From assembly GCF_001717585.1 (NCBI RefSeq), contig NZ_CP017042.1, forward strand, positions 1,139,001-1,203,000: a DNA stretch of 64,000 nucleotides, read 5' to 3'. The DNA comes from Selenomonas sp. oral taxon 920. Its GTDB lineage: Bacteria; Bacillota; Negativicutes; Selenomonadales; Selenomonadaceae. The notes under the pieces are model-generated. The model saw nothing but the letters and a program-made list of their open reading frames with translations, did no database searches and had not been told where the DNA came from. The position numbers and the translations under genes were made by a program. Shown piece by piece: positions 17,030-24,501 of this stretch; positions within the stretch are counted from its first letter, which is position 1, and each line of letters opens with the position of its first letter.

Positions 17030-18028
17030 TTAGATGAAGAGCATCACAACCTGATATGTAATAGCTCCCATGACAGCTGTGCAAGGGATTGTCATGACCC
17101 AAGCAACCACCATTTGCTGGGCGACCCCCCAGCGAACAGCATTGATGCGTTTTGCTGCACCAACGCCCATGATCGATCCAGAAACCACATGTGTTGTACT
17201 CACGGGAAGATGTAAGAGAGTTGCACCGAATATGATGATGGAGGAATTAAGATCTGCCGCAAATCCAGAAATCGGCTGAAGCTTGAATATTTTTCCACCG
17301 ATTGTCTTGATGATACGCCAGCCCCCTACGGCCGTTCCACAGGCCATAGCAGTCGCTGCGAGTACCTTGACATAGGTTGGAACCTCGAATGCGTCGATAT
17401 ATCCGCCGGCAAGCAACGCGAGTGTCATAATACCCATAGATTTTTGTGCATCATTGGAACCATGTGAAAATGCCATCGTTGCTGCTGTTAGAATTTGCAT
17501 CTTCTTGAATTTTCCGTTGATGGATGTGGGGCGGAAACGACCGAAGAAACGGAATAAGAACAACATAATGACACATCCCAATGCCATGCCCACAAGCGGT
17601 GAGAGGATCAGGGAAAGAATGATTTTTCCAATTCCATAGAAATTTAAGCCCTCCATACCAGAGGAAGACATGAGCACAGCACCGATCAAACCACCGATAA
17701 GTGCATGGGAACTACTGGACGGCATACCGAATCTCCACGTAATGATATTCCATATAATCGAGCCAAAGAGTGCCGCAATCAGCACGTGTTCATCTACGTG
17801 GGAGGCTGATTTGACAATATCCGATCCAATGGTCTTTGCAACCCCGGTACTGTACATGGCACCTAAAAAATTAAGTACGGCAGCCATGATAATTGCGTGT
17901 TGAGGGTGAATGGCTCTGGTCGAAACCGAGGTGGCAATCGCGTTTGCCGTATCGTGGAACCCGTTAATGAAATCGAATATAAGGGCTAACAGTATAACAA
18001 GAAAGATCAAAAGCTGGAAATCAGGCAT
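17030..18028 (-). CDS. pit: PiT-family inorganic phosphate transporter
   Basis: A 332-aa polytopic membrane protein with about ten hydrophobic segments. It has the duplicated PiT signature: FDFINGFHDTANAIATSVS at the N-terminus and SHGSNDAQKSMGIMTLALL in the second half. It imports phosphate as a metal-phosphate complex with protons or sodium. It overlaps the upstream DUF47 gene by 8 nt, the standard PiT partner arrangement. Confidence 0.95.
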   Translation of the reverse strand: MPDFQLLIFLVILLALIFDFINGFHDTANAIATSVSTRAIHPQHAIIMAAVLNFLGAMYSTGVAKTIGSDIVKSASHVDEHVLIAALFGSIIWNIITWRFGMPSSSSHALIGGLIGAVLMSSSGMEGLNFYGIGKIILSLILSPLVGMALGCVIMLFLFRFFGRFRPTSINGKFKKMQILTAATMAFSHGSNDAQKSMGIMTLALLAGGYIDAFEVPTYVKVLAATAMACGTAVGGWRIIKTIGGKIFKLQPISGFAADLNSSIIIFGATLLHLPVSTTHVVSGSIMGVGAAKRINAVRWGVAQQMVVAWVMTIPCTAVMGAITYQVVMLFI

Positions 18029-18647
18029 ATTTCATTACCACTCCCCGCAGCATATCCGCAATGAGTTCACAATGATCCAGCGTATCTTCCAGCTGTTCTA
18101 ACACGTCTTTCCATCGAATCAGTTCGATGGGATCTTTTTCATTATCGAAAAGATAGGCAACCTCACTTCGATAGATGAGATCTCCTTCGCTTTCATAGCG
18201 TTCGATTTTGTGCGATGCATCCAGTATCTGTACTTGGTTTTTTCGGATGTTTTCAAGATAAGAAACGGCCCGTACAACTTCTTCCGTAGCAGAGATTAGG
18301 AGGTTTGTCAGATTGATTGCACCTGCCATGGGCTTTCCCATGCGGTACATCTCGTAGCGCTGCAGTATTCCCTGTAAGAGATCGACTCCGTCATCAAGGT
18401 CATTTGCCAAGGCATAGATGTCTTCTCGATCAATGGGGGTGATAAAGGTAAGGTTTAATTTATCAATAATACGGTCATTGATAGCATCTGCTTCGTGTTC
18501 AATACGATTGATTTCCTCCACTTTTGTTCCTGTGGTCGTATAGTCCTTCATAACATCATCTAAAACCAATGCGCCTGTATGAAAGAACTTCGCGCTCTCA
18601 AGGAATAGGTCAAAGAATTCGTCATCTTTCTGCTTGAAATTAAACAT
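18021..18647 (-). CDS. DUF47 (PhoU-like) pit accessory protein
   Basis: A 208-aa all-helical cytoplasmic protein of the DUF47/PhoU-like family: KQKDDEFFDLFLESAKFF at the start, EINRIEHEADAINDRI and DREDIYALANDLDDGVDLL. These proteins accompany PiT transporters and are thought to control them. It is the first gene of the two-gene unit. The 230 bp upstream are AT-rich and hold its promoter, which I could not place firmly. Confidence 0.92.
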   Translation of the reverse strand: MFNFKQKDDEFFDLFLESAKFFHTGALVLDDVMKDYTTTGTKVEEINRIEHEADAINDRIIDKLNLTFITPIDREDIYALANDLDDGVDLLQGILQRYEMYRMGKPMAGAINLTNLLISATEEVVRAVSYLENIRKNQVQILDASHKIERYESEGDLIYRSEVAYLFDNEKDPIELIRWKDVLEQLEDTLDHCELIADMLRGVVMKYA

Positions 18648-18879: not shown

Positions 18880-19710
18880 TTACATAGGGACGTCTATCTC
18901 GGAGATGGTAATGCGCGGAGCTTTCCCTTTCGGCAGGAGTGTAAATACGGACGAGAGGAGTTTTTGGGTGTAGGGATGCTTTGCATGAGCAAGATCCTGT
19001 CCATCCAGCTGCTCCACAACCTTTCCAAAGTACATGACGACAACGCACGTGCATAAACGCGACACGAGTGCAAGGTCATGACAGATGAACAGGATTGTCA
19101 GATTTCGTTCCCGTTGAATACGGACAAGCAGTTCAACAATCGTCTCCTGCACAGAAACATCAAGCGCACTCGTTGCCTCGTCACAGACCAGAATCTCCGG
19201 CTCCAATGCCAGTGCGCGCGCAATTCCAACGCGCTGGCGCTGTCCCCCGCTCATATTTGCGGGGTAGCGTTCGGCAAAGTCCTCAGGAAGATCGACAAGA
19301 CGCAGCAGCTCGGCTGCCTTGTCATGTGCGCTCCCTTTGAGGAGTCCGAAGTTCCGCAGCGGTTCACAGATGATGTCCTTAATCTTCATCTTCGGATTGA
19401 AGGATGTTGTAGGATCCTGAAAGACCATCTGGATATTGCGCCGCATATTGCGGGCATCCTCGCCCTTCAGCCCCGTAATTTCCTTGTCTCTGAAGAAGAT
19501 TTGACCCTCAGATGGTGCATGAAGCTGCATCAGTGTGCGCACAAGCGTACTTTTTCCACAGCCGCTTTCACCGACAATGCCGAGGATTTCTCCACGATAT
19601 ACGGGAAATGTCACATCATTACATGCCGTAAGAACTTTGCCGCCCTCAAGGGGGAAGCGTTTGGTAATATGCTCGATGCGCAGGATGATCTCACGCTCCG
19701 ACTGCGTCAT
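18880..19710 (-). CDS. ABC importer ATPase 2 (OppF/DppF/NikE type)
   Basis: 276 aa. Walker A GESGCGKSTLVRT, Q-loop MVFQDPTTSFNP, signature MSGGQRQRVGIARALAL, Walker B LVCDEATSALDVS. One of two ATPases that power the importer. ATG at 19710 follows GGAGGAAAG and overlaps the partner ATPase gene by 20 nt; the open frame back to 19860 is the partner gene read out of frame. It is the last gene of the riboswitch operon. Confidence 0.93.
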   Translation of the reverse strand: MTQSEREIILRIEHITKRFPLEGGKVLTACNDVTFPVYRGEILGIVGESGCGKSTLVRTLMQLHAPSEGQIFFRDKEITGLKGEDARNMRRNIQMVFQDPTTSFNPKMKIKDIICEPLRNFGLLKGSAHDKAAELLRLVDLPEDFAERYPANMSGGQRQRVGIARALALEPEILVCDEATSALDVSVQETIVELLVRIQRERNLTILFICHDLALVSRLCTCVVVMYFGKVVEQLDGQDLAHAKHPYTQKLLSSVFTLLPKGKAPRITISEIDVPM

Positions 19711-20488
19711 AACGCTTTCCTCCAATCTGTGGTACGGCACGCAGGAGTTCCTTGGTGTAGTCCTTCTGCGCGTGTTCAATAATTTCTTCGGCAGTGCCAT
19801 GCTCGATGACATTGCCGTTCTGCATGACCATGATCTGATCCGACATATAGGCTGCGACACCGAGGTTGTGTGTCACAAGGACAATGGATGTGCCATCCTT
19901 CTGGCAGATGTCCATCATCTCATTGACGACCTGTGCCTGCGTGGTCACGTCCAACGCAGACGTTGGTTCGTCAGCCAGCAGGAGTGCCGGCTTGAAGAAC
20001 ATCGCCATTGCAACGCCAACACGCTGACGCATGCCGCCTGAAAGTTCAAACGGAAAGCTCTTCATTACATTCGCGGGATTGGACAGATGCATACGTGCAA
20101 GCATATCCTGTGCCTGCGCAGCTGCCTCCTTCGCACCGATGGACTCATGAGTCTGAATATACTCCACAAACTGCTCACCGATGGTACGAATCGGATCCAT
20201 CATGCTGCCGCTGTCCTGGAAGATCATCGCAGCTGTCTTTCCGCTTACGTGACGCCACTCCTCAGCGCTGCACTTCGTCATATCCTTCCCGTCATAGAGG
20301 ATCTCGCCCGCCGTTACTCTGCCGACATGCGGCAGGCAGCCGAGCATCGCCCGAATGACGGTGGTCTTCCCGCTGCCGCTTTCGCCGACAATGGTCAGCA
20401 CTTCCCCGTCCTTGAGGGTGAAGTCCACACCGTGCACCATTTCTGTGCCTTCGTATGCGATTTTTAGCCCTCGCACCTCAATCAACAT
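19691..20488 (-). CDS. ABC importer ATPase 1 (OppD/DppD/NikD type)
   Basis: 265 aa. Walker A GESGSGKTTVIRAM, signature ELSGGMRQRVGVAMAM, Walker B LLLADEPTSALDVT, switch His in LVTHNLGVAA. It lacks most of the extended C-terminal oligopeptide-binding motif of long OppD proteins, as in NikD-like ATPases. GGAGGAGAAG precedes ATG at 20488. The position after the binding protein follows an order permease-permease-binding protein-ATPase-ATPase. Confidence 0.93.
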   Translation of the reverse strand: MLIEVRGLKIAYEGTEMVHGVDFTLKDGEVLTIVGESGSGKTTVIRAMLGCLPHVGRVTAGEILYDGKDMTKCSAEEWRHVSGKTAAMIFQDSGSMMDPIRTIGEQFVEYIQTHESIGAKEAAAQAQDMLARMHLSNPANVMKSFPFELSGGMRQRVGVAMAMFFKPALLLADEPTSALDVTTQAQVVNEMMDICQKDGTSIVLVTHNLGVAAYMSDQIMVMQNGNVIEHGTAEEIIEHAQKDYTKELLRAVPQIGGKRYDAVGA

Positions 20489-20506
20489 TCGGGCTTCTCC
20501 TCCTTA

Positions 20507-22069
20507 TTACTTCGCAGGTTTGATCTTGCTCGTGATCCAGTAGTAATCCGCAGGATGCATAATCGCACCCGTGATCTTGGTCGAGCTGACGATGTTTGTC
20601 TCGGGGTAGCCGAGGAACAATGCAGCTCCATCATTCAGCAGAATCTGCTGCATGTCGATCATCAGCTGACGGCGTTTTGCACGATCAAACTCAACGGCAA
20701 GCTGTGCGCAGAGTGCATCATATTCGGGGTTGCTGTAACCGGAGCCGTTTTGCGGGTTGTTGCCGTTCACGTTCGTGCGCCAGTACCAGTTGAGGTAGAT
20801 CTCGGGATCACCCGTATTTGCCGTGGTAATATTGGAAATCAGAAGATCGTACTCTCCGTTGATTCCAATTTTGTCGAGCAAATTGTAATCGACAGACTTT
20901 ACCTTTACGTCAATACCGACCTTCTTGGCATCTGCCTGTACTGCCTCTGCATAGATCGGCAGCTCTGCGCGGCTGTTGTAGATAATAAAGTCAACGGAAA
21001 GCGGTTTGCCGTCCTTGTCACGGATGCCATCACCATCCGTATCCTTCCAGCCTGCCTCGTCGAGGAGCTTATTCGCGCGATCGACATTGTAGGCATTCGG
21101 GTCGGTGAGCTGATCGAAGCCATAGTCGAGAGAGGGCGGGACAGGAGCCTTGCCCGGGATGAAGGTTCCCTTCAGGATGACCTCATTGTACGACTTACGA
21201 TCTGTCATTGAGATAAACGCAGCGCGTACCTTCGGATCGCCGAGAATCCCCTTCTGATTAATGCGTGCGAGAACCGTACGCAGCGATGCGATACGATCTA
21301 CATGGAACTTCGACGTATCATTAAAGAGGCCAAGATCACCTGCGGCGATGTTGACCGCCATATCGACTTCTCCCGACTGGAGTGCCATTGCGCGCGTGTT
21401 CGGATCGTCGATCGACGGGATCTCGACCGTCTCATACGGCACTTCGCCGCCCCAATAGTTCGGGTTCTTCTTCATGACGGCCTTTTCCTTCACGAAGGAT
21501 TCGCAGACGTAGGGACCTGTGCAGATGGGACCCTGCGTTGCGAAGTTGCGCTCCTTCTCACTCTCAACATCGACAATGAGAAAAAGCGGATCTGCAAGGT
21601 AGCCGAGCATGCTCGGTGCAGGTTTATCCGTTGTAATCTTGAGTATCTGCCCGTCTGCAGTCATATTTGTATACGTGAAGAATGTTGCTGCGCGTGTATT
21701 CTTTGCAAACGCACGCTCAAGTGATGCCTTGACCGCCTCTGCCGTAAGTGGGCGCCCGTTCGAGAATTTGACATCACGAATCTTAAATGTCCACGTCAGC
21801 TTATCATCGCTGATTTCCCAGCTCTCAGCAAGCCACGGTTGGATATTCATTTTCTCATCAAACTGAGTTAGTGTTTCGCCCATGCCGTAGCGCATGACGA
21901 CCCATCCGAAGGCATTTTCCGTCGGTTCGAGCGAGTCTGCAAAGTTCGTTACGCCAACCTTCAGCGTCGTCTTGTCCCCTGCAGACTGACCGCCGCCGCA
22001 GCCCGTCAGCAGTGCAGCTGCCATGCAGCCTGTCAGCAGTGCTGTCAGCCATCGTTTTTTCTTTCCCAT
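20507..22069 (-). CDS. Substrate-binding lipoprotein, family 5 (Opp/Nik type)
   Basis: A 520-aa extracytoplasmic solute-binding protein anchored by lipid. The signal peptide ends in a lipobox AALLTGC (Cys near residue 24). Family 5 landmarks are LAESWEISDDKLTWTFKIRD, VKFSNGRPLTAEAV, ICTGPYVCESF and KNPNYWGGEVPYETV. This family binds peptides, nickel or metal-chelator complexes. The cobalamin riboswitch in front of the operon argues for cobalt, a cobalt complex or a corrinoid precursor rather than peptides (inference). AAAGGAGGAA precedes ATG at 22069. Confidence 0.9.
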   Translation of the reverse strand: MGKKKRWLTALLTGCMAAALLTGCGGGQSAGDKTTLKVGVTNFADSLEPTENAFGWVVMRYGMGETLTQFDEKMNIQPWLAESWEISDDKLTWTFKIRDVKFSNGRPLTAEAVKASLERAFAKNTRAATFFTYTNMTADGQILKITTDKPAPSMLGYLADPLFLIVDVESEKERNFATQGPICTGPYVCESFVKEKAVMKKNPNYWGGEVPYETVEIPSIDDPNTRAMALQSGEVDMAVNIAAGDLGLFNDTSKFHVDRIASLRTVLARINQKGILGDPKVRAAFISMTDRKSYNEVILKGTFIPGKAPVPPSLDYGFDQLTDPNAYNVDRANKLLDEAGWKDTDGDGIRDKDGKPLSVDFIIYNSRAELPIYAEAVQADAKKVGIDVKVKSVDYNLLDKIGINGEYDLLISNITTANTGDPEIYLNWYWRTNVNGNNPQNGSGYSNPEYDALCAQLAVEFDRAKRRQLMIDMQQILLNDGAALFLGYPETNIVSSTKITGAIMHPADYYWITSKIKPAK

Positions 22070-22080
22070 ATGTTCCTCCT

Positions 22081-22893
22081 TTAATTTGCCTTGCGCGGGT
22101 CCATAATATCCCGCAGACTATCTCCCCAAAGATTAAATACCGCGACGACGAATACGATCGCCAGTCCGGGGAAGATCATAAGCCAGGGTGCCGTCTGGAT
22201 CAGCTGACGCCCCTCATTCAGCATGAGCCCCCACTCCGGTGTCGGCGGCTGTGCGCCAAATCCGAGGAAGGAGAGCCCCGCAAGCTCCATCATGAGTGCG
22301 CCGATGTCGAGTGCGGCGGTCACAATGATAATCGGTATGATATTCGGCAGGATATGCCGACGAATCATCGCAAGCGGTCGTGTACCATTTGTAATTGCAG
22401 CAGCTAGGAAATCCTGCTGCTTAACCTTCAACGTCATACTGCGTGCAAGACGTGCATACTTTGTCCAGCCTACAATAACAACGGCGAGCACTGCGTTGAC
22501 TGCACTCCCGCCGAGCACGCCGGCAATCGCAATGGCAAGCACGATGCCCGGAAATGCAAGGAACACGTCGGTCAGACGCATGATGGCATTGTCCACCTTA
22601 CCGCCCACATAGGCAGAGATCACACCGATCAATGTGCCAAGTCCTGACGAGATGATGACAACTGTGAGCGCCATCGTAATCGAGATGCGTGCACCGTAGA
22701 GAATACGCGTAAAGATATCGCGCCCGAGCTTATCTGTGCCAAAGTAATGCTCAGCGGATGGCGGCAGGAGAGAATTCTGAATCTGCGACTCATATGGATC
22801 GTATGACGAGATCAGCGGTGCACAGATGGCGACAAGCACAATCAGCAGGATGATGCCTGTATAGATACGAAACAGCAGTTGATCCCGCGTCAT
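22081..22893 (-). CDS. ABC importer permease 2 (OppC/NikC type)
   Basis: A 270-aa inner-membrane permease with about six hydrophobic segments. It has the OppC N-terminal soluble stretch HYFGTDKLGRDIFTRILYG and the ATPase-contact loop TNGTRPLAMIRRHILPNI. It overlaps permease 1 by ATGA (22890-22893). The ten bases before the binding-protein gene leave no room for a separate promoter. Confidence 0.93.
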   Translation of the reverse strand: MTRDQLLFRIYTGIILLIVLVAICAPLISSYDPYESQIQNSLLPPSAEHYFGTDKLGRDIFTRILYGARISITMALTVVIISSGLGTLIGVISAYVGGKVDNAIMRLTDVFLAFPGIVLAIAIAGVLGGSAVNAVLAVVIVGWTKYARLARSMTLKVKQQDFLAAAITNGTRPLAMIRRHILPNIIPIIIVTAALDIGALMMELAGLSFLGFGAQPPTPEWGLMLNEGRQLIQTAPWLMIFPGLAIVFVVAVFNLWGDSLRDIMDPRKAN

Positions 22894-23834
22894 GCTTTCG
22901 CCCCCTTCCTGAGTCTCGGATCAAGGTACGCATAGGATATATCAACAATGAGGTTCACAAACATATAGAGTGTTGCAATCCAGAGGACAAAGCCCTGGAG
23001 GAGCGGATAGTCGCGTGCTTCGATCGCACGCACCGCAACGCGTCCGATGCCCGGCCACGAAAAGACAATCTCAATGACGGCAACCCCGCCGAGCAGCCAG
23101 CCAATGGAAAGCCCAAGCAGTGTGATGAGCGGCAGGAAGGCATTCGGCAGAACGTGACGAATGAGGATGCGTGTCATCGACATGCCGCGTGCCTTGAGAC
23201 CCGTGACGTAGTCCTGCCCGAGCTCCTCAAGCACCGCCGTACGCACCTGACGCGTATACTTCGATGACAGCAGGATGGCAAGTGTAAAGGCAGGGAGAAT
23301 CATACGATCAAGGCTGACCTCGCCGCCTGCAATCGGGAAAAGTCCAAGCTTCAGACCGAATACATAGAGCAGAATAAGGCCCACCCAGAAGCTCGGCATG
23401 GAGACACCGAGAAAGGTGAAGAATCGTATGACTTGATCCGGCCACCGATTACGATAGAGTGCTGAGATAACTCCTGCCGGAATGGAGATCGAGAGCATCA
23501 TCACCACCGCTGTCCCCGCAAGCAACAGTGTTCCCGGCAGATTCTGCAAGAGTTTATCCTGTACCGGAATTTTTGCCGAGTAGGAACGCCCCATATCCCC
23601 GTGTACCACACCGTTCAGCCAACTGAGATACTGTTCGTGGAACGGTCGATCCAGCCCCAACTCGTGACGTGTACGCTCGATGGTCTCTTGTGATACAATC
23701 GTATCGCCGGTTTCGAGAATCGCATCCACAGGATCGCCCGGCGCAATGAATGTCAGACTGAACGTCAGAAAACTGACCCCCAGCAGGGTAATGATCATCT
23801 GCCCCAGACGCATCAGGATCGCTTTTGCACTCAA
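22890..23834 (-). CDS. ABC importer permease 1 (OppB/NikB type)
   Basis: A 314-aa inner-membrane permease. ITLLGVSFLTFSLTFIAPGD at the N-terminus, LSWLNGVVHGDMGRSY and the contact loop GLKARGMSMTRILIRHVLPN are OppB landmarks. I choose TTG at 23834: AAAGGAG lies 8 nt before it, and any longer version would read through the riboswitch terminator hairpin at 23871-23896. An internal ATG at 23813 has no good ribosome binding site. It is the first gene after the riboswitch. Confidence 0.9.
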   Translation of the reverse strand: MSAKAILMRLGQMIITLLGVSFLTFSLTFIAPGDPVDAILETGDTIVSQETIERTRHELGLDRPFHEQYLSWLNGVVHGDMGRSYSAKIPVQDKLLQNLPGTLLLAGTAVVMMLSISIPAGVISALYRNRWPDQVIRFFTFLGVSMPSFWVGLILLYVFGLKLGLFPIAGGEVSLDRMILPAFTLAILLSSKYTRQVRTAVLEELGQDYVTGLKARGMSMTRILIRHVLPNAFLPLITLLGLSIGWLLGGVAVIEIVFSWPGIGRVAVRAIEARDYPLLQGFVLWIATLYMFVNLIVDISYAYLDPRLRKGAKA

Positions 23835-23860: not shown

Positions 23861-23896
23861 GAAAATAAAACCGCCTGTCTCTTTTAAGACAGGCGG
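23861..23896 (-). terminator. Riboswitch-controlled terminator
   Basis: In transcript order: CCGCCTGTCT (23896 to 23887), a 6-nt loop, AGACAGGCGG (23880 to 23871), then TTTTATTTTC. This perfect 10-bp hairpin with a U-rich tail lies 27 bp before the permease start. Its first arm is also part of a 15-nt stretch complementary to the riboswitch core, so it is a conditional terminator. Confidence 0.92.
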
Positions 23897-23989
23897 AAGA
23901 ATGCACACAAAAAACAACGATCTTACGGCACTCCCTAGTGCTGTAAATCGCACATCCATCTTCCCATCTCTCGTGAGTCCATCAATGAA

Positions 23990-24190
23990 TCTTATTGCGA
24001 GCAGGCTTTCCGGCTCATAGATCGCTGCATTCTTCCGCCTTCCCAGGATTATCCCAGTGACTTTACAGGCACAGGCTCTGCGCCTGTGGAAGAACACTCC
24101 CTATTTACGGCTGCGGGACAGCATGGGAATTTCACCCATTTTCCTCTCATCGCTCAACGGAATGCGCACAAAGCAATATTCATCCGTCGA
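23990..24190 (-). promoter_or_regulatory. Cobalamin riboswitch
   Basis: Read on the minus strand, the conserved blocks appear in order: GGGTGAAATTCCCATGC, GTCCCGCAGCCGTAA, GTCACTGGGA, CTGGGAAGGCGG, ATGAGCCGGAAAGCCTGC. This is the B12-box layout of adenosylcobalamin-type riboswitches. GGCGGAAGAATGCA within the core is complementary to the region just ahead of the terminator, which gives a clear OFF switch when ligand binds. It controls the ABC importer operon downstream. Outer boundaries are approximate. Confidence 0.93.
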
Positions 24191-24235
24191 CACTCGCAAC
24201 GTCATTTATTTGGTTTTCAACATAAGTTCAAACGT

Positions 24236-24264
24236 AGTATATCCATATTAGATATGCTTGTCAA
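24236..24264 (-). promoter_or_regulatory. Promoter of the riboswitch/importer operon
   Basis: On the minus strand TTGACA (24264-24259), 17 bp, TATACT (24241-24236). Transcription would start about 40 bp before the riboswitch core. Confidence 0.88.
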
Positions 24265-24331: not shown

Positions 24332-24501
24332 TTAAGGAATCGCTGATAAAATGAAGTCCGTCAGATTGGCGTAGATTTTTTCGTCCGAACAAGGAGACAA
24401 ACCGGACGCATAGCAAGGGCTATGTGGAGGATTTGTCGACACAGTGCGGGCAAAAAAGATGCGCCAAGATGGCGCGGCTGAATTTATCAGTGCTTCCTTA
24501 A
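24332..24501 (+). repeat. MITE-like repeat, copy 2 (complete)
   Basis: 170 bp from TTAAGGAATCGCTGATAAA to TTTATCAGTGCTTCCTTAA, so the outer ends form a palindrome and the subterminal 15 bp an imperfect inverted repeat. Inside are a GACAAA..CATAGC/GCTATG..TTTGTC hairpin and a second small one, GCGCCA/TGGCGC. Its right end, TTAA at 24498-24501, contains the stop codon of the MATE gene on the minus strand. No coding content is seen. Confidence 0.92.

Follow-up and report, generated by a model that had tools for sequence, protein, structure and literature searches.

As set out by Barrick and Breaker (PMC2258182), most riboswitches switch through their P1 helix, whereas cobalamin riboswitches usually rely on a pseudoknot that involves a C-rich loop, and the classification given in PMC10907184 places them with the interdomain docking riboswitches (group 2) rather than with those using strand exchange (group 3). 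The relay from corrinoid binding to the terminator is described as unknown by Procknow et al. 2023 (PMC10653944), where it is solved for two riboswitches and antitermination based on P13 is established for one repressing riboswitch; the nikA riboswitch of S. ovata deviated from the prediction of the model, by a mechanism that the account in that paper leaves unidentified.

The locus described here is the leader of a nik-type operon in Selenomonas sp. oral taxon 920, lying in a window (the whole stretch of DNA that was analysed) of 64,000 nucleotides. Its architecture suggests a cobalamin riboswitch of the transcriptional OFF type in which the P6-accessory helix would give up one of its strands to the antiterminator (strand exchange), a reading to which we give slightly better than even odds (a probability of about 0.53). 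The leader shares with the RF00174 family the match of its aptamer to the full model, a C-rich L5, an L13-type loop and a site before a predicted metal-uptake operon, and differs from it by its B12 box, GCCGGAAAGCCUGCU. The metE riboswitch of Priestia megaterium, as described in PMC10653944, is likewise a transcriptional OFF switch with a terminator and an antiterminator; however, its antiterminator draws on the 3' side of P13, whereas in the window the 3' strand of the P6-accessory helix makes the strongest partner and the P13 side comes second. As in the strand-exchange riboswitches of group 3 outlined in PMC10907184, an aptamer segment appears to be used as a switching sequence, but in terms of the classes given there the window would join docking loops to a strand exchange that takes place in an accessory helix and not in P1. 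No description of an accessory helix as an antiterminator arm was found in the literature searched, which was not exhaustive and from which no absence is claimed. The leader offers a concrete and testable alternative route, in which a wobble-free copy of one strand would invade the accessory helix.

Comparison was made at two levels. The nik set comprises leaders from 12 of the 14 genomes of the genus, the window included, and one from another genus (G031), giving 13 leaders, 12 of them distinct; those of G001 and G009, identical over 351 bases, were merged in the alignment (G001_G009), and no leader match was found in G010 and G011 of the genus. A divergent 14th leader (G035) was kept outside the alignment. 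The class-wide set comprises 243 Negativicutes cobalamin riboswitches, 231 with a usable terminator and 12 without a usable terminator or landmark; four weak RF00174 matches (33.6-38.8 bits, of 114) were left out, and from 129 matches 110 (30 + 80) were used, one of the 19 left out, the nik leader of G031, being already included.

Elements of the leader

The first-pass annotation had read a cobalamin riboswitch at this position, and the RF00174 covariance model bears it out (Table 1). P1 is poorly placed by the Rfam alignment, with non-standard pairs; the natural P1, read directly from the bases, is UUGCGAG/CUCGCAA (24199-24193 with 24001-23995). Promoter-like sites of the kind found upstream occur at 3 per 1 kb vs 1.2 in shuffles, the site at 24264-24236 being the best, and the transcript is expected to start near 24229. 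An intrinsic terminator is present between the aptamer and the nikB-like first gene, its hairpin being followed by UUUUAUUUU (also given as TTTTATTTTC). Judging by their spacing and common strand, the five genes from 18880 to 23834 probably form one co-transcribed Nik/Opp-type ABC operon.

Table 1. Features of the leader and the operon, in window positions
Feature	Position	Strand	Evidence
Promoter-like site TTGACA-17-TATACT	24236-24264	minus	11/12 consensus matches
Cobalamin riboswitch aptamer, RF00174	23983-24182	minus	76.1 bits, gathering score 31.5, E 5.7e-17
P5-L5 hairpin CUGUCCCGCAG, C-rich UCCCG loop, putative kissing-loop partner	24111-24121	minus	sequence; role as described in PMC2258182 and PMC10907184
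P6-accessory 5' strand GUGUUCUUCC, partner of arm 1 in the aptamer	24088-24097	minus	paired in 98.3% of cells over the 12 distinct leaders; -15.6 kcal/mol
Arm 1 AGGCGGAAGAAUGCA (GGC + GGAAGAAUGC), antiterminator 5' arm	24026-24040	minus	sequence, alignment
Variant B12 box AGCCGGAAAGCCUGC, GAAAGC form	24001-24015	minus	sequence comparison of 243 riboswitches
L13-type loop ACGAGAGA	23967-23974	minus	motif level; in 13/13 nik-set leaders
Arm 2 UGCAUUCUUCCGCCU, antiterminator 3' arm	23891-23905	minus	sequence
Intrinsic terminator hairpin CCGCCUGUCUUAAAAGAGACAGGCGG	23871-23896	minus	11 bp, -19.5 kcal/mol
nikB-like permease (Opp2B/NikB family), TTG start, operon gene 1	22890-23834	minus	NF045470 401.6 bits, cut-off 350
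nikC-like gene	22081-22893	minus	sequence similarity
NikA/SBP_bac_5-like binding protein	20507-22069	minus	sequence similarity, below NikA-specific cut-offs
nikD/nikE-like ATPases	19691-20488 + 18880-19716	minus	sequence similarity

Competing helices of the accessory strand

The two 15-nt arms form the perfect inverted repeat that had first been noticed here, 100% complementary and 120 nt apart. When the 397-nt leader was shuffled 300 times with its dinucleotides preserved, perfect inverted repeats had a maximum length of 6-11 nt, and the chance expectation for a 15-nt repeat in the leader is about 7e-5; the match is not due to chance. Arm 2 does contain the first arm of the terminator, CCGCCU, the six shared bases lying at 23896-23891. 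Arm 1 had been taken for a segment of the conserved ligand-binding core, and this identification is ruled out, as it sits in the P6-accessory helix and consists of the 3' strand of that helix and a conserved GGC. To call such a use of the aptamer 'unusually direct', as the first-pass annotation did, is also too strong, earlier models having used aptamer bases according to the account in Procknow et al. 2023 (PMC10653944).

Within the aptamer, the GGAAGAAUGC part of arm 1 pairs with GUGUUCUUCC (24097-24088) and its GGC, invariant in the 12 distinct leaders, with GUC at 24061-24059, leaving only the A residues at both ends of the arm without a base-pair. The GGC/GUC and accessory helices, together with a small inner hairpin, are 98.1% paired across the 12 distinct nik-set leaders, and the accessory helices are nearly devoid of covariation because their sequences hardly vary; the P6-accessory region is called highly variable in the description by Kennedy et al. 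(PMC9600662). Arm 2 is a copy of the GUGUUCUUCC strand with which the two wobble (G-U) pairs become Watson-Crick pairs. Over the same ten bases the competitor is computed at -18.6 kcal/mol vs -15.6 for the native helix, and the complete 15-bp antiterminator reaches -31.9 kcal/mol.

The proposed strand exchange would proceed as follows. When no ligand is bound, nascent UGCAUUCUUCCGCCU would oust the wobble-containing GUGUUCUUCC and pair with AGGCGGAAGAAUGCA, withdrawing CCGCCU from the terminator and allowing RNA polymerase to continue into the nik-type operon. Binding of the ligand, probably aided by docking of L5 to L13, would lock the accessory helix, which in turn would block invasion by arm 2 and let the terminator form. 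We infer the ligand to be a cobalamin; its locking of the accessory helix, the timing of the exchange and the repression of a cobalt (or cobalt/nickel) importer would be expected on the same model. If true, a variable appendage of the aptamer would act as the switching helix.

Folding, which was done by thermodynamics without pseudoknots, ligand or kinetics, gives an antiterminator pairing probability of 0.97-0.98 in transcripts ending at 23891, 23886, 23881 and 23876. The mutual exclusion that had been read from the arms is upheld by these computations, in which pairing of the arms competes with the aptamer on one side and with the terminator on the other, and the RNA is antiterminated before the terminator is complete. 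When the accessory helix is held, as a stand-in for the ligand, the terminator-base probability in transcripts starting at 24212 rises from 0.12-0.29 to 0.98-0.99; with a start at 24229 it rises from 0.37 to 0.95 if the transcript ends at the hairpin, and from 0.50 to 0.67 or 0.73 if it runs on into the U tract, partly or to its end. The folding thus yields more terminator with the aptamer helix held, but the size of the effect on the window terminator varies with the transcript ends chosen. Given this dependence on the ends, the RNA is best modelled as poised, stabilisation of the aptamer probably tipping it toward termination either strongly or mildly. Strand exchange with P1 was also considered as a candidate and rejected, the best helix in the region from the B12 box to the end of the aptamer reaching only -6.8.

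The terminator strand has a second potential partner, which brings in the scheme of P. megaterium metE: docking of L5 to L13 would fix P13, and in the unbound RNA the 3' side of P13/L13 would pair with the terminator 5' strand, the 15-nt match being secondary to this pairing or cooperating with it. The window indeed offers an interrupted duplex of this type (-21.3), formed with arm 2 and the terminator 5' strand, in which GAGAUGGG (23970-23963, overlapping L13) pairs with CCUGUCUU inside the terminator stem and which extends to GGAUGUGC-side bases with GUGUGCAU, and at the motif level both L5 and L13 are present in 13/13 nik-set leaders, the L13-type loop being missing from the divergent G035. 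However, the duplex with arm 1 is the stronger one (-29.4 vs -21.3; best contiguous helix -31.9 vs -11.8), and its pairing holds 0.97 of the ensemble before the terminator is complete. We therefore consider a P13 platform less probable here, though a serious contender in view of the comparisons described below.

The pairing in close relatives and across the class

Only three of the 13 nik-set leaders, those of the window (G000), G001 and G009, carry the long match; they amount to two distinct sequences, with 15 bp or, counting a G-U pair, 16. G001_G009 keep 16 bp, a substitution there leaving the bases paired as G-U. In the ten remaining leaders the contiguous helix is at best 5-10 bp long, namely 5 bp in G005 and G006, 6 bp in G003, G013 and G031, 7 bp in G007, where it is prolonged by a second block, and 10 bp in the shifted register GGGAAGGCGG in G002, G004, G008 and G012. 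All 13 leaders nevertheless have at least 5 contiguous bp between the terminator 5' strand and an AGGCG-containing segment. The arm 1 segment outranks the other three regions in 9 of 14 leaders; this count includes the divergent G035, which in this segment reaches no more than 5 bp (-8.3). The cells are paired at 76.4% vs 35-56% in slid controls.

The finer expectations of the first-pass annotation fared less well at this level. The covariation of the two 15-nt arms that it proposed to look for is absent from the nik-set alignment, where compensatory changes in the arms show no excess over shuffles, and a leader's own arm 2 pairs no better than a relative's arm 2 in the nik set (permutation p = 0.17). 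Conservation of the arms in close relatives holds for G001 and G009 but not for G005 and G006, which at 88-89% leader identity have only 5 contiguous pairs and a broken block; arm 1 is unchanged in these two and the loss is confined to arm 2. Predicted switching upon holding the accessory helix is clear in three of the 12 distinct leaders, the window, G007 (terminator-base probability 0.30 to 0.96) and G031 (0.43 to 0.95), and in the other nine the holding hardly shifts the terminator probability (e.g. 0.86 to 0.88 in G001_G009). In G001_G009, before the terminator 3' strand is made, pairing between the terminator 5' strand and the aptamer strand has a probability of 0.95. Taken together, the helix lengths, slid controls, covariation, own-versus-relative and folding tests suggest that pairing to the accessory strand is a recurring habit of this group and that the perfect 15-mer is local. 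If the strand-exchange model is true, the platform could be quickly rewired among close species while the aptamer stays unchanged.

These patterns also bear on the view that the terminator is essentially constitutive or weakly regulated and that one Selenomonas branch came by the 15-nt match through a recent, lineage-specific accident. Such an accident would fit the confinement of the long match to two distinct sequences in three genomes, the absent covariation and the slight switching predicted for nine leaders; it would, however, have to overcome a chance expectation of about 7e-5 and have fallen precisely on the overlap of aptamer and terminator, and the 16 bp retained in G001_G009 through a G-U-preserving substitution also speak against it. 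We hold it to be very unlikely. The element is real and probably functions as a cobalamin OFF switch, known in kind and variant in wiring, and for strand exchange with the accessory helix the lack of covariation support for the antiterminator in relatives lowers our confidence.

Across the 231 riboswitches with a usable terminator, the window helix is the strongest between the terminator 5' strand and the accessory segment (-31.9 kcal/mol). The next after G001 and G009 belongs to another family (G047_L260; contig C19, near 62449), where GGGAAGGUUUGGGUGA can pair over 16 bp (-25.8) with UCAUCUAAACCUUCUU at the terminator; the same wiring may have arisen there independently. Arms swapped between clusters (7832 pairs) reach -28.3 at the extreme, with 1% at -18.1 and 5% at -14.7, and single cases beyond the window's own group are inconclusive for this reason. 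The accessory segment is the best of four regions in 39/231 and shows no excess over swapped arms (p = 0.35, 89 cluster representatives); these two results rule out the accessory-strand platform as a general feature of cobalamin riboswitches. Only the P13/linker region exceeds swapped arms, both among the same 89 cluster representatives (p = 0.009) and among 28 clusters drawn from the genus, the rumen and two other leaders and compared by duplex energies (p = 0.0001); a value of p = 0.016, obtained in these 28 clusters for the accessory segment when cut three bases later, is not relied on. The nik set gives the same picture (p = 0.006 for P13/linker), and since it is the P13 side and not arm 1 that beats swapped arms there, an antiterminator of the P13 type, or one with two partners, is a real alternative to strand exchange with the accessory helix alone.

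Both types of pairing recur within the genus. In a group of 12 paralogues the accessory strand resembles GCAGGGGAGC and the terminator strand GCUUUCUUGC, and the two pair at -14 or better in nine of the 12. In 13 of the 14 members of the L122 group the best partner for the terminator 5' strand, UGCCUUUUUG, is CAGGAAGGCG on the P13 3' side, which matches the scheme published for P. megaterium metE in PMC10653944. The accessory-strand and P13 solutions thus seem to coexist, P13 being the more general. The accessory-strand pairing is weak or absent in the nik riboswitches of other genera in G059, G040 and G033, with G032 falling outside the landmark filter, and the nik riboswitches of rumen Selenomonadaceae have usual B12 boxes and terminator partners that lie mostly elsewhere.

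The variant B12 box, the ligand and the operon

The B12 box of the window reads GAAAGCC instead of GAGAAC/GAGACC, and the RF00174 model still aligns it. Boxes of the GAAAGC form are found in 16/243 riboswitches, 15 of the 16 lying before a nikB-like gene, while the commonest form, GAGAA, accounts for 147/243. The variant box GAAAGCCUGC marks a subset of riboswitches located mostly upstream of nikB-like genes. The usual box is nonetheless found at the 17 of 21 rumen riboswitch loci that lie directly before nikB, and also in G033, G040 and G059. A wider pattern, AGYCNGAAAGCCTGC, occurs in 53/300 genomes of the class vs 10 genomes for the backwards control, and is not always part of a riboswitch, with RF00174 matching at 5 of 18 such loci outside the genus. 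Of 16 genomes checked, 13 have the variant box upstream of their best nikB relative at a distance of at most 300 bases, the exceptions being G063, G066 and G072.

These 13 loci, with seven more taken from the pattern list regardless of nikB, make up 20 variant-box loci (L369-L388), all of which have an RF00174 match (56.6-97.9 bits); among the 18 with a called terminator (none being called in G111 and G165) the best accessory-strand helix in these other genera is only -8.9. All 16 loci of family f25 (L373-L388) lack the L5 motif CCCGC as well as the L13 motif, yet match RF00174 at 56.6-80.2 bits; the four variant-box loci of other families have both motifs. Among the 243 other riboswitches, 201 and 218 contain the same simple loop patterns, and by this control a single missing motif is not rare, but the absence of both in 16/16 is. 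With both motifs missing and the RF00174 match retained, family f25 looks, at the motif level, like a sub-type that may be able to dispense with the kissing loop.

The rewritten box raises the question of whether the ligand could be something other than adenosylcobalamin, such as another corrinoid or a biosynthetic intermediate, which would be compatible with either platform. The occurrence of the variant box before a nikB-like gene in 15 of 16 cases and the altered sequence from the accessory helix to the B12 box are consistent with this; however, the RF00174 match is still strong, many other riboswitches before nikB-like genes have the usual box, and the S. ovata nikA riboswitch is promiscuous as reported by Kennedy et al. 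2022 (PMC9600662), which makes a new ligand unnecessary. A different ligand is thus quite unlikely in our estimate. A broader and more speculative scenario, which we consider rather unlikely, is that of a nik-linked Negativicutes sub-type with a rewritten B12 box that is drifting away from kissing-loop docking, having lost it in one family and, in Selenomonas, having kept it alongside strand exchange in the accessory helix; such a sub-type may sense a corrinoid state that bears on cobalt demand and not adenosylcobalamin itself. If true, it could explain the departure of S. ovata nikA from the P13 model.

As to the operon itself, NikABCDE systems behind B12 riboswitches were earlier separated from nickel-specific ones in the comparison reported in PMC2667541. 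The window likewise has a Nik-type ABC importer behind a B12 riboswitch, and is therefore not counted as nickel-specific but taken as a probable cobalt uptake system; it differs from the systems described there in having nikB first in the gene order and a binding protein that scores under the NikA-specific cut-offs (316 vs 600; 203 vs 393). The host genome has six RF00174 matches in total, and four of the other five lie each before a gene, one for a CbiK protein and the rest for methylmalonyl-CoA mutase, a TonB receptor and a periplasmic binding protein. In view of these genes, import of cobalt (or cobalt/nickel) by the operon is likely. Its permease has 98% identity to that of Selenomonas sp. 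FOBRC6, the nearest among the named records returned, from which nearer genomes may be absent. The nik-type operon is followed on the same strand by a DUF47/PhoU-like gene and a PHO4-family phosphate transporter gene (17030-18647). A MATE transporter gene lies upstream, and the interval between it and the leader (24359-24475) contains two more terminator-like hairpins, one on each strand.
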